Shown piece by piece: positions 51,797 through 58,133 of a stretch of 64,000 bases of DNA (the stretch's first letter is position 1; every line of letters begins with the position of its first letter). The notes beneath the pieces were generated by a model. It was not told the DNA's origin, ran no database searches, and saw only the letters and a list, made by a program, of their open reading frames with translations. Origin of the DNA: Aestuariispira ectoiniformans (lineage in GTDB: Bacteria; Pseudomonadota; Alphaproteobacteria; UBA8366; Aestuariispiraceae); contig NZ_CP062788.1 of NCBI RefSeq assembly GCF_025136295.1, positions 1,457,001 to 1,521,000 of the forward strand, read 5' to 3'. The position numbers were made by a program, and so were the translations under genes.

Positions 51797-52705
51797 CTAG
51801 GCCCGCCTTTTGGTCCGTTTTTCGCGAGCCATCAGATAGAGGCCGCTTGCAATGACGACGCCCGCCCCGGCAATGGTAAACCCATCCGGCTTGTCGCCAA
51901 AGGCGATGAAACCCACCAGAACGGACCAGACAATCTGGGTGTAATAGAACGGCGCCAGCAGGCTGGCGGGGGCATATTGATGGGCGATGATGATCAGGAA
52001 ATGGGCAAAGCCGCCAAAAATTCCGGTCAACAGCATGAAGGCCCAGGCCTGACCCGTCTCCGGCGTCTGCCAGACCCAGGGCATCGGCAAAGACATGAAG
52101 ATCGCACCGAAAAGGGCGGTATAGAACACCGATGTGACCGGGTCTTCCTTGCCCGCAATCTGCCGGGTCAGGATGAGATAGAAGGAATAGCAGGTAATCC
52201 CGCCCAACAGGACAAGCATCGCCCAATGCATGCCGTCCATCCCCGGACGGACGACCAGAAGGACACCGAGGAAGCCGACCAGGATCGCACTCCAGCGGTG
52301 AAAGCCGACCACTTCCTTGAGGATCGGCACAGAAAGTGCCGCGACCAGCAGGGGCGTGGCGAAGCCGATTGACGTGACCTGCGCCATTTGCAGATGCTTC
52401 AGGGCCAGGAAGGACGCCAGTGTCATCAGGAGAAGCAAAAGGGAACGGGCAAGCTGAATCTTCAGGTTGGCGGTTGCGATCAGATTCTTGCCCATGCGCG
52501 GGCCAAAAATAAGCGCGAAGGCCAACAGGTGAACGGCGAAACGGACCCAGACAGTCTGCGCGACGGGCACACCGGCCGCCGCCGCGCTCTTGGCGCTCAT
52601 CTCCAGCAGGATCAGCGTCGCCACGCCAATACACATAAGCAGGATACCCCGGCCGGGGCGGTCACTTCGTCGGTCGATGATTTCGGTTGCTGCCTGAGAC
52701 GCCAT
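51797..52705 (-). CDS. EamA-family (DMT) membrane transporter, second copy
   Basis: A 302-residue ten-helix DMT exporter with two EamA repeats (GILLMCIGVATLILLEMSAKSAAAAG; then GGITCYSFYLILTRQIAG). It is recognisably related to the protein at 47833-48717 (both have a VGFLGVLLVVRPG-type block). Substrate unknown. Confidence 0.85.
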   Translation of the reverse strand: MASQAATEIIDRRSDRPGRGILLMCIGVATLILLEMSAKSAAAAGVPVAQTVWVRFAVHLLAFALIFGPRMGKNLIATANLKIQLARSLLLLLMTLASFLALKHLQMAQVTSIGFATPLLVAALSVPILKEVVGFHRWSAILVGFLGVLLVVRPGMDGMHWAMLVLLGGITCYSFYLILTRQIAGKEDPVTSVFYTALFGAIFMSLPMPWVWQTPETGQAWAFMLLTGIFGGFAHFLIIIAHQYAPASLLAPFYYTQIVWSVLVGFIAFGDKPDGFTIAGAGVVIASGLYLMAREKRTKRRA

Positions 52706-55037: not shown

Positions 55038-55339
55038 TTTGACTCTCCAGGCTTGATTGATTGTCTTTCATCAAGGGCTCCTATGGCCCTTGTTCGGGGG
55101 TGGCGCAACTTACTTTTACAAATTCATTAAGTCAAATATTAAATACAACATGAAAATTGGTGTGTTATTGCTAAAGATACACCCATACGGCATAAGATTG
55201 AATATCTCAAGAAATATATACCTATACGTGTAAAACCTGCAGAAAACATCGGTTTTTATGCATTCCCGCTACGCGGTAGTCGGGCGTTATGGTTTCTTCC
55301 ATATGCTGATTGTTTCAGCCGTATTGTTAGGAGAAAACG
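55038..55339. promoter_or_regulatory. Divergent region between tcyJ and the GNAT/LuxR pair
   Basis: 302 bases, AT-rich in the middle. It contains a 13-bp direct repeat with 2 differences (55177-55189 and 55216-55228, 39 bp apart), an inverted AAAACC/GGTTTT (55232-55256), and a small hairpin around CTACGCGGTAG (55265-55284). AGGAG lies 7 bases before the GNAT start. No coding signal was seen. Confidence 0.4.
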
Positions 55340-55915
55340 ATGACTAAAATGCAGACTATCGAAGTGAAAATCGCTGAAACCCTGGAGGACCTGGAGGCGG
55401 TTTACGCAGTTCGCCGAAAGGTTTTCATGATGGATGATGACAATGAACCCGAGGAAGAGCAGTTCGACGGTAACGATCTGGTTGCCACGCATCTGCTGGC
55501 AATGATGGACGGAAATGTTGTCGGCACCATGCGTTTGCGCATTATCTCCGCTGCCTGCGGCGGGGTGATGATCTGGGAGCGCCTGTCAATCCTGAGGGAA
55601 GTACGAGAGTCAAACCCTTGGGTTTTTAAGAAACTTGTGAATGCTGCCCAGGAGTATAGGAAGATGATGGGCGTTGAGAGCGTCATTGGGATTGTCGAGA
55701 ACCCCCGTTTAATGGCTGTTTGGAGGCGAATGGGCTTTCATCAAACCGGTGAACAACCTTTGGTTTATCGTGGGCATAAGTATGTGCCTATGGCTCAACG
55801 CTTTGGAGCCGAGTTAAAGGTTGAAGAACTTCCATCTTTACGCGAAGCTGTATTGACGGTACCTAAAGTATTTTCGGAACGGCAATTGCTTCAGGGTGAA
55901 ACGAGGGCTCATTGA
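55340..55915 (+). CDS. GNAT-fold acyltransferase, LuxI-like candidate
   Basis: A 191-residue GNAT protein. VRRKVFMM (Arg25/26, Phe29), EEEQFDGNDLVATHLL (Asp43, Asp46), GTMRLR (Arg65) and WERLSI (Glu80) lie where AHL synthases have R..VF, E.D.FD, GT.RL and E.xR. A conserved tryptophan of LuxI is missing, and the C-terminal GNAT block VESVIGIVENPRLMAVWRRMGF is of ordinary type. It overlaps the LuxR-type gene, the usual layout of a synthase and its receptor. An N-acyl-amino-acid or AHL-like signal synthase is possible; a plain acetyltransferase is the other reading. Confidence 0.7.
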   Translation: MTKMQTIEVKIAETLEDLEAVYAVRRKVFMMDDDNEPEEEQFDGNDLVATHLLAMMDGNVVGTMRLRIISAACGGVMIWERLSILREVRESNPWVFKKLVNAAQEYRKMMGVESVIGIVENPRLMAVWRRMGFHQTGEQPLVYRGHKYVPMAQRFGAELKVEELPSLREAVLTVPKVFSERQLLQGETRAH

Positions 55916-56610
55916 CGAGTAGCGCTGAAATGCTTGCGAGATTTGCTCGGGCGGAAACGCCCGAGCAAATCCGTGACCTGTTTTTGGAGATGGGGTTCTC
56001 AGGAGTTCTGTTCCAGCGTTGGTACGCTGGGGTCATGGACAACTGGGAAGGCACGATGCCGCCAGGGTTCCTTGAACATTATTACGCTACCCAGCTTTAT
56101 AAATGGTGCCCGGTTGCACGTGCCATTCATCAGTGGCGGCGCGACTATACCTTTGCCGAGGCCCGCGCCGCAATTCTGGTTGGGGACCCCCGAGCGGAAA
56201 AAGCTGAACGGCTTTTTTCCAATTTCGGTATTAGTGATGGCGTGGTGTTATTCTCCGGGCGAAACTCGCTGCGTTCCGCCACAGTGCTGATGTCGCGCTT
56301 ACCCGTTGAGCAGACCTTCACAACGCACGGCCCCATGCTGGCCTATGCGGCGCGCTGTCTTGAGCGGATTCTGCATAGTGGTAACGCGACCCTGGAGCGC
56401 ATTACCCGCGATGACCCGCGTTTGTCTGAAACGCAGGAACGTATCCTGCAGATGCAGATCGAACATCCCGAATTCACGATGGCGGAGATGGCCGAATTGT
56501 TGGGGATGTCGGTGAAGACCTTGCGGTCCCATCATGAGAAGATTGCCAAGAAGACGAATGTCAGCAATTTCGCCGGTGCGGTTGTAGAGCGCATGACGCG
56601 GGCGCTTTGA
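55912..56610 (+). CDS. LuxR-family regulator with an autoinducer-like binding domain
   Basis: A 232-residue protein. The C-terminal LuxR HTH is FTMAEMAELLGMSVKTLRSHHEKIAKKTNVSN (about 184-215). The N-terminal part aligns with the TraR/LuxR ligand pocket: Tyr57 and Pro67 match Tyr61 and Pro71 of TraR, while Trp57 becomes Phe53, Asp70 becomes Cys66, and Trp85 becomes Phe81. Asp70 normally binds the AHL amide, so the ligand is probably not a standard AHL. The TTG 55912 start overlaps the GNAT stop; ATG 55930 is an alternative. Confidence 0.8.
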   Translation: MTSSAEMLARFARAETPEQIRDLFLEMGFSGVLFQRWYAGVMDNWEGTMPPGFLEHYYATQLYKWCPVARAIHQWRRDYTFAEARAAILVGDPRAEKAERLFSNFGISDGVVLFSGRNSLRSATVLMSRLPVEQTFTTHGPMLAYAARCLERILHSGNATLERITRDDPRLSETQERILQMQIEHPEFTMAEMAELLGMSVKTLRSHHEKIAKKTNVSNFAGAVVERMTRAL

Positions 56611-57581: not shown

Positions 57582-57920
57582 TTATTTGTTCAGGGATTTG
57601 ATCAGATTCAGAATCTGGTTCCGGACAACCTGGTCTTCAATGGATTCGATCTGATGGGCAAGCTGGATGGTCCGGCGCGGCAGCACCTTGTCGTCATGCG
57701 CCTCGTCCAGGCCATCGAAGAAATAGCTTACCGGCGTCTGAAGGTGCTGGGAAATTTCATAAAGACGGCTGGCACCGATACGGTTGGTGCCTTTTTCGTA
57801 TTTCTGGACCTGCTGGAAACTAATGCCCAACTTCTTGCCAAGCTGTTCCTGGCTCATGCTTCTTGCAGCGCGGGCTTCACGTACTTTACGTCCGACATGG
57901 ACATCGGTCGGGTGCGGCAT
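57582..57920 (-). CDS. XRE-family transcriptional regulator
   Basis: A 112-residue Cro/CI-type protein. The HTH is GRKVREARAARSMSQEQLGKKLGISFQQVQKYEKGTNRIGASRLY at about 10-54. The HTH plus the trailing helix (RTIQLAHQIESIEDQVVRNQIL) is a common alphaproteobacterial build. ATG 57920 has AAGGAG with 6 bases to spare. Target unknown. Confidence 0.85.
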   Translation of the reverse strand: MPHPTDVHVGRKVREARAARSMSQEQLGKKLGISFQQVQKYEKGTNRIGASRLYEISQHLQTPVSYFFDGLDEAHDDKVLPRRTIQLAHQIESIEDQVVRNQILNLIKSLNK

Positions 57921-58133
57921 CATATACTCCTTCGGCGGCAATGCACCAGAAAGTGGCATCGCGGTTTTTCAACTGACTATGAAAAAAGCCGAAGGATTTC
58001 CCAACGGACTACGGTCGCATCGAGAAAATTTCGACGCACTGTAGCTGTAGCTGAACAAAACACAACCTAAGGAAAGCTTCAAGTTTTATTTCCGAAGGGG
58101 GGGCGCCACGCCGGAAAATCGAATATCAGTCTG

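Follow-up and report, generated by a model that had tools for sequence, protein, structure and literature searches.

We analysed a 64,000-nucleotide stretch of the Aestuariispira ectoiniformans genome (NZ_CP062788.1, positions 1,457,001 to 1,521,000; hereafter the window), in which a gene for a GNAT-fold protein overlaps by 4 bp a gene for a LuxR-type regulator (Table 1). An initial sequence-only reading had described the two as an overlapping pair laid out as in quorum sensing, and had proposed from the residues of the regulator that they serve a signal other than the N-acylhomoserine lactones (AHLs) of LuxI/LuxR systems. Both open reading frames are present, and the window sits in a 4.36-Mb single-contig alphaproteobacterial genome (G000) that offers an internal contrast: about 1.03 Mb away, this genome also has a true LuxI (PF00765, E = 1.7e-41) with an adjoining LuxR gene.

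Table 1. Locations of the pair, its pocket codons and associated or comparable features (window coordinates unless a contig or locus is named)
Feature	Location	Strand	Remarks
GNAT-fold gene	55340-55915	+	191 aa, ATG start; candidate ligand or signal synthase; ElaA/YjcF-like by sequence and fold
LuxR-type regulator gene	55912-56610	+	232 aa, TTG start; N-terminal domain with autoinducer-receptor fold, LuxR-type helix-turn-helix
Phe53 codon of regulator	56068-56070	+	TraR Trp57 position; Phe in 14/14 aligned regulators
Cys66 codon (TGC) of regulator	56107-56109	+	TraR Asp70 position; Cys in 14/14 aligned regulators and in distant L117
Phe81 codon of regulator	56152-56154	+	TraR Trp85 position; Phe in 13/14 (His in L010); Trp in distant L117
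Intergenic promoter/leader region	55038-55339	.	Separates the GNAT gene from a divergent solute-binding-protein gene
XRE-type helix-turn-helix regulator gene	57582-57959	-	About 1 kb downstream of the pair, beyond a solute-binding-protein gene; possibly associated, membership of the module not proven
EamA-type (drug/metabolite) transporter gene	51797-52705	-	2.6 kb upstream of the pair (Pfam)
True luxI/luxR of the window genome	G000:C1, about 2542800-2544300		PF00765 match
Other XRE copies	L190 3932-4297; L189 4420-4761		Third copy near a gene of unknown function
Canonical pair of G004	L017 / L195 (G004:C15)		29-kb contig with a ParA-type ATPase gene; second pair of G004

Receptor fold and altered pocket of the regulator

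Against the Pfam Autoind_bind model the regulator scored 16.9 bits, below the cut-off of 23, with helix-turn-helix models also matching. Profile methods placed it more closely: TraR was the best solved relative of the regulator-family profile (E = 1.2e-5), and hhalign against nine canonical LuxR proteins gave E = 1.1e-16 over 220 columns. We compared the AlphaFold model of the window regulator (pLDDT 88.7) with solved structures, for which Foldseek returned AHL receptors first (CviR, SdiA, RhlR, TraR and QscR, E = 7e-9 to 1e-6) and VIA gave Z = 16.6 for CepR2 (root-mean-square deviation (rmsd) 2.5 over 150 residues), with LasR alike.

In TraR, W57 holds the lactone and D70 the amide of the AHL. 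Profile alignment to TraR equated W57, Y61, D70, P71, W85 and G113 with F53, Y57, C66, P67, F81 and G110 of the window regulator, confirming the earlier claim that Asp70 is replaced by Cys and two tryptophans by Phe. WYDPWG, the AHL pocket motif of LuxR-type receptors (PMC4414361, PMC10134790), therefore reads FYCPFG, and the regulator lacks the AHL motif. C66, F53 and Y57 were invariant both in the 14 aligned regulators and in a 12-row alignment (A5) including L117, a distant regulator from another family that is 24% identical to that of the window and again has the Cys and Phe53, with Trp at position 81. The P71 position is Ala in several of the Cys-type regulators (those with Cys at TraR Asp70) of the 14-row alignment. 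Because these pocket residues are invariant and the modelled fold is that of an AHL receptor, the window regulator is by fold a LuxR-type receptor, its pocket consistently rebuilt rather than decayed, and the invariant loss of the W57 and D70 equivalents is consistent with the proposal of a different signal.

PluR and PauR of Photorhabdus provide a comparison, as in both of them Tyr61 and Asp70 are retained and the remaining motif residues differ (TYDQCS and TYDQYI), whereas the window regulator has Cys for Asp70 and keeps P71 and G113; the signal of PluR is made by a ketosynthase. These LuxR-type proteins, with their substituted six-residue motif, are described as having non-AHL ligands (PMC4414361).

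Relation of the GNAT to LuxI and ElaA-like enzymes

The sequence-only reading had also noted that the GNAT keeps several but not all AHL-synthase positions. Taking R24, F28, W34, D45, D48, R70, F84, E101 and R104 as the nine conserved LuxI residues, we found six of the nine in the window protein (R24, F28, D45, D48, R70 and R104), which agrees with that description. The other three (W34, F84 and E101) are absent from all 16 aligned paired GNATs and present in 7/8, 7/8 and 8/8 LuxI sequences, respectively. The identical six residues are, however, carried by 3/3 ElaA-like GNATs, and most GNATs with the motif EEFDGND carry the same ones (F28 is Tyr in 10 of 17); R104 varies, with Lys in 3 of 14 and Gln in L117. 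Since the kept residues are common to these other enzymes, they do not point to AHL synthesis, and we rejected them as evidence for it.

In Pfam, no model named either protein above its cut-off. The window GNAT had no match to PF00765 (Autoind_synth) at E ≤ 1, and its top Pfam match was FeeM (PF21926) at 22.5 bits, below the cut-off of 27, with plain GNAT models also matching. Its nearest solved relatives by profile were SACOL1063 (E = 6.9e-11), YjcF (2e-6), PA0115 (6.7e-5) and ElaA itself (0.034). By fold (VIA), SACOL1063 again came first (Z = 20.1, rmsd 1.8 over 142 residues), followed by YjcF (18.8), in an ElaA/YjcF-like range of 20.1 to 16.9; FeeM (2g0b) reached Z = 15.4 (rmsd 2.8 over 153 residues), compared with 17-20 for the best plain GNATs. 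LuxI synthases were not among the 50 fold matches listed, though they may share the fold. With hhalign, the paired GNATs aligned to three ElaA-like rows at E = 6.2e-20 and to LuxI at E = 1.5e-8; the label 'ElaA-like' for these three rows is our own, as they score 29-59 bits against NCBIfam PRK10314, below its cut-off of 171.

We built a tree of 50 GNATs, which took in 8 of 11 LuxI matches, 5 of 29 listed FeeM-model matches and 17 of 69 EEFDGND loci (L044-L112). A 99/99 branch sets the eight LuxI rows off from the rest of the tree. A 99/98 branch joins the paired GNATs to the ElaA-like and other EEFDGND GNATs, away from LuxI. Within that grouping the paired GNATs are not one clade, and the tree, which contains long branches, does not settle their order relative to the ElaA-like and LysR-linked GNATs. 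On the lack of a PF00765 match, the separate branch, the three missing residues and the nearer hhalign match to ElaA-like rows, we rejected membership of the GNAT in LuxI, and its supposed likeness to LuxI by residues was not supported. The earlier reading had named grouping with ribosomal or general acetyltransferases, combined with the lack of a new acyl product, as counting against its proposal; the first half of that, an ElaA-like grouping of the GNAT apart from LuxI, is what we found. The N-acyl amino acid synthase FeeM shares the GNAT fold in addition to that sub-cut-off Pfam match, but the five FeeM-model matches lie across the 99/98 branch (two that were checked are OlsB-like; FeeM itself is outside the tree), and we know of no LuxR partner for FeeM.

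The paired GNATs resemble the ElaA/YjcF-like acetyltransferases (SACOL1063, YjcF, ElaA and PA0115), their best matches in sequence and fold, but differ from them in lacking the coenzyme A (CoA) pyrophosphate loop and in being fixed beside LuxR-type genes. The loop pattern [QR]xxGx[GA] (P-loop) occurs in 0/16 paired GNATs, 3/3 ElaA-like rows and 0/8 LuxI sequences; elsewhere, it was seen in 3/17 LysR-linked GNATs, in L013 (1/1) and in 1/5 FeeM-model rows, where it lies inside an insertion. LuxI and FeeM use acyl-acyl carrier protein, so that loss of the P-loop is the main reason to consider an unusual acyl donor. Together with the fixed link to LuxR-type regulators, this loss argues against a plain house-keeping acetyltransferase. 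Ten residues are invariant in the 12-row subfamily alignment (R25, F29, D43, D46, L52, R65, A103, Y106, G117 and W128). Among the four Kiloniella, the ratio of nonsynonymous to synonymous substitution rates (dN/dS) is 0.06-0.11 for the GNAT (6/6 species pairs) and 0.05-0.08 for the regulator (4/6, the rest being saturated), and selection on both genes is strongly purifying.

Conservation and distribution of the pair

Overall, we identified 17 GNATs of the subfamily (profile E ≤ 1e-50) across 15 alphaproteobacterial species: the window genome, nine more genomes of its family (two with two pairs each), four Kiloniella records and G082, which belongs to another family. Duplicates were counted once (L037-L043 are the same DNA as loci with genome handles, and L113, from G297, matches L035 over 600 bases). 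In all 17 cases a LuxR-type gene follows the GNAT on the same strand, overlapping it or lying within 25 bp in 14 and at 124, 190 and 215 bp in three. Partner regulators are of the Cys type in 16/17 pairs and have a canonical pocket in one. At the 22 GNAT loci of the next tier (L165-L186, E ≥ 1e-36), no LuxR-type gene was found within about 1.5 kb on either side; the 69 lower-scoring EEFDGND loci (L044-L112) had a Cys-type regulator at none and one weak LuxR match about 2 kb off. The EEFDGND search covered the best 80 of 376 loci, the other 296 all being lower-scoring, and its motif misses members such as L117 and L017.

The quorum-sensing-like layout with a changed pocket is thus kept well beyond the window genome, and both genes are real, conserved and diverging together. 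Distance matrices of the GNATs and regulators were correlated (r = 0.94 for 16 pairs and 0.93 for a less redundant set of 11; permutation p = 1e-4). In the regulator alignment behind these values, gaps had displaced the Asp-Pro of L017, the canonical regulator, which further alignments put in place. Identity of the window proteins to those of Kiloniella is 49-53% for the GNAT and 48-51% for the regulator, and 25-37% to the other pairs compared. The window pair is therefore closer to that of Kiloniella, which belongs to another family, than to pairs of its own family, and may reflect transfer as a unit or differential loss.

The regulator is narrowly distributed. It matched at E ≤ 1e-3 in 12/14 genomes of the window's family (11 strongly), in 7/385 genomes drawn evenly from the class (E ≤ 1e-15) and in 1/398 of a phylum-wide draw, solely the window's own genome. 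An initial search of genome contigs with the single window GNAT sequence gave no match. Searches of plasmids, phages and viral contigs returned no match to the regulator; the GNAT had no phage match and two weak, partial plasmid matches (Paracoccus and Aureimonas, 32-33% identity). On these searches we rejected mobile spread as a general explanation; the second pair of G004 alone lies on a 29-kb contig with a ParA-type ATPase gene.

We also searched 12 pair-bearing genomes with PF00765, revealing two matches: the window's own true LuxI and a G003 protein of 26.3 bits (cut-off 24) that clears the threshold only together with its neighbours. NCBIfam identifies this protein as an exosortase-system acyltransferase (175.5 bits, cut-off 112). 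A true LuxI is lacking in 11 of these 12 genomes, a set that leaves Kiloniella L033, L034 and L036 outside. G004, which is 99% complete, had no LuxI match, and just one of its LuxR genes passed the Autoind_bind cut-off (E = 1.3e-18). That gene shares 4 bp with the gene for a GNAT of the subfamily. Aligned to RhlR and SdiA, the encoded LuxR keeps W57, Y61, D70, P71, W85 and G113. Because canonical and Cys-type receptors both occur in such pairs, the same GNAT lineage occupies the place of LuxI beside two kinds of receptor. The G004 pair is the strongest single fact for signalling, suggesting by position, without proving, that the GNAT makes the ligand.

Candidate functions and surrounding genes

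We give an even chance to the reading in which the GNAT makes the ligand of its LuxR-type partner, the pair being a LuxI/LuxR-like module with an independently recruited, non-LuxI enzyme. A GNAT of ElaA/YjcF-like descent, without the CoA pyrophosphate loop, would make a small acylated compound, probably not an AHL; the partner, with its pocket rebuilt around Cys66, Phe53 and Phe81, would bind this compound; and the ligand-bound regulator would control transcription, probably including that of its own operon. The analysis establishes the layout, the receptor fold and the pocket changes. Catalysis by the GNAT, the identity of its product with the ligand, the acylated and non-AHL nature of that product and autoregulation are what we infer, as is export from the cell, the step that would separate quorum sensing from internal sensing. 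More tentatively, and as a possibility rather than a probability, the pair could represent a second, independently evolved LuxI/LuxR-like quorum-sensing system, with an ElaA-derived GNAT lacking the CoA loop as the synthase and receptors re-tuned for a non-AHL N-acyl product through replacement of Asp70 by Cys and of Trp57 and mostly Trp85 by Phe. The canonical-pocket pair of G004 may then show this enzyme put to use earlier or in parallel.

In LuxI/LuxR systems (TraI/TraR and the window genome's own pair), as here, a GNAT-fold enzyme gene adjoins a gene for a LuxR-type protein of receptor fold; the differences lie in the enzyme, which is outside the LuxI clade and without its PF00765 match and W34, F84 and E101, and in the change from WYDPWG to FYCPFG. 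In the window genome an XRE gene of one family lies near both loci: the family has three copies there, one by this pair, one 42 bp from the true luxR and one elsewhere, and by our own arithmetic the chance of such a gene within 1 kb of a given spot is about 0.2%. Members also occur close to the pairs of G003, G007, G009, G010 and G011, and Kiloniella L033 has a different XRE-type gene near its pair. The window XRE protein may resemble PraR. In Rhizobium leguminosarum, PraR represses the LuxR-type genes raiR and rhiR (PMC4149787), and a PraR from Methylobacterium acts downstream of an AHL system (PMC10790750).

Several observations weigh against a GNAT-made ligand. By annotation, ElaA-like GNATs count as ordinary acetyltransferases, and the best fold matches are plain GNATs (Z = 17-20, with FeeM at 15.4). 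The loss of the P-loop could equally reflect an inactive GNAT, a view countered by the ten invariant residues and the low dN/dS. The correlation of distances shows joint descent rather than function and follows also from inheritance as an operon. In G005, close to the end of a contig, the paired GNAT (L010, G005:C9) is interrupted by an in-frame stop ahead of its conserved part; the gene is possibly broken or the stop an assembly error, so that one of the 17 pairs may be broken. G001 has Cys-type regulators without a GNAT at L028 (G001:C2) and L031 (G001:C29, which looks shortened or broken), and nothing in that genome matched the GNAT subfamily. We found no lux-box-like dyad common to the regions upstream of the GNATs, nor a strong dyad in the window region. 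Finally, the XRE family was not seen in the flanks examined of G004, G012, G013, G082 and the second G010 pair, and its link to the pair is not general.

Two other explanations, metabolite sensing and control at the protein level, are the serious rivals. Intracellular metabolite sensing would have the GNAT acylate an amine, amino acid or drug-like metabolite, with the regulator sensing substrate or product in the same cell and feeding back on the enzyme without a cell-to-cell signal. The nearest folds are small-molecule or protein acetyltransferases, the pair is rare, as the 7/385 genomes with the regulator in the even class draw indicate, and altered LuxR pockets can take non-AHL compounds, as in PluR and PauR (PMC4414361). 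We nevertheless consider this explanation rather unlikely, given that the CoA P-loop is gone from 16/16 aligned paired GNATs, that one G004 partner is a LuxR with a canonical AHL pocket, and that no metabolic gene, reading by eye, is common to the neighbourhoods of different pair groups. Control at the protein level, in which a degenerate or protein-modifying GNAT binds or acetylates the regulator and no ligand is made, would fit the 4-bp overlaps, the joint divergence and the loss of the P-loop. We hold it to be improbable, as the presumed core residues (R25, F29, D43, D46, R65, Y106 and W128) are invariant and selection is strong; LuxI is also without the loop (0/8) and is active despite lacking it. 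There is a precedent in PqsE, which binds RhlR and whose catalytic inactivation leaves binding intact (PMC13043044).

Plain AHL quorum sensing, in which the GNAT would produce an AHL differently from LuxI and the Cys-type regulator would have kept its ability to bind it, could draw on the six kept LuxI residues of the window GNAT, the significant hhalign match to LuxI (E = 1.5e-8) and the one paired LuxR with all six AHL-pocket residues. It is nonetheless very unlikely, in view of the absence of W34, F84 and E101 from every aligned paired GNAT, the nearer match to ElaA-like rows (E = 6.2e-20), the position outside LuxI on the 99/98 branch and the loss of W57 and D70 in every aligned Cys-type partner. 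We give hardly any chance to the view that the two genes are unrelated and share an ordinary operon but no pathway, staying adjacent through chance or translational coupling: adjacency and joint divergence are indeed what is shown, but the adjacency holds in 17/17 cases across 15 species versus none within about 1.5 kb at the 22 nearest related GNAT loci, and the pairing persists at 24-37% identity and in differing genomic contexts.

Receptors known as 'LuxR solos' are presumed to detect signals for which they have no LuxI partner. The receptors described in this analysis are a distinct set of LuxR-type proteins accompanied by an enzyme of their own that belongs to a different branch of the GNAT superfamily, and searches for LuxI therefore miss the whole system, as in the 11 of 12 genomes without a true LuxI. 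A literature search, with most subscription journals and bioRxiv-only preprints outside its coverage, found no report of a GNAT-LuxR pair, and to our knowledge this conserved module is undescribed. If the GNAT does make the ligand of its partner, the pair could lead to signalling molecules of a new class in Alphaproteobacteria that are mainly marine, and would serve as a natural experiment on the shift of a LuxR pocket from AHLs to another ligand. If, moreover, the system is independent of LuxI/LuxR, relatives without LuxI (Kiloniella, Pacificispira and Marivibrio, the LuxI search having excluded Kiloniella L033, L034 and L036) would be using an unknown chemical language.

Upstream of the pair, the GNAT ribosome-binding site is masked by a hairpin in 4/4 Kiloniella (z = -1.98 to -2.44), whereas the window has no such signal (z = -0.29). 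The hairpin, TTATYCTRRCG ... CGTTAGGATAA (varied in L036), lies at about 5945-6020 of L033 and in the same place in L034-L036, and might act as a DNA operator or as a switch of translation. Kiloniella locus L033 showed none of the amino-acid transporter genes that surround the window pair. An EamA-type transporter gene follows the pair in L003 (2883-3435, by Pfam), L004, L008 and L025, and possibly encodes an exporter or is there by chance. Beyond the paired subfamily, the EEFDGND GNATs (L044-L112; for example, L053, L058, L073 and L110) are widespread, mostly alphaproteobacterial with one Nostoc record, and mostly without the P-loop, and some have a long N-terminal extension. At the loci inspected, a divergent LysR-type gene often lies beside them, in some cases with an isochorismatase-like gene (confirmed by Pfam in L053 and L110).

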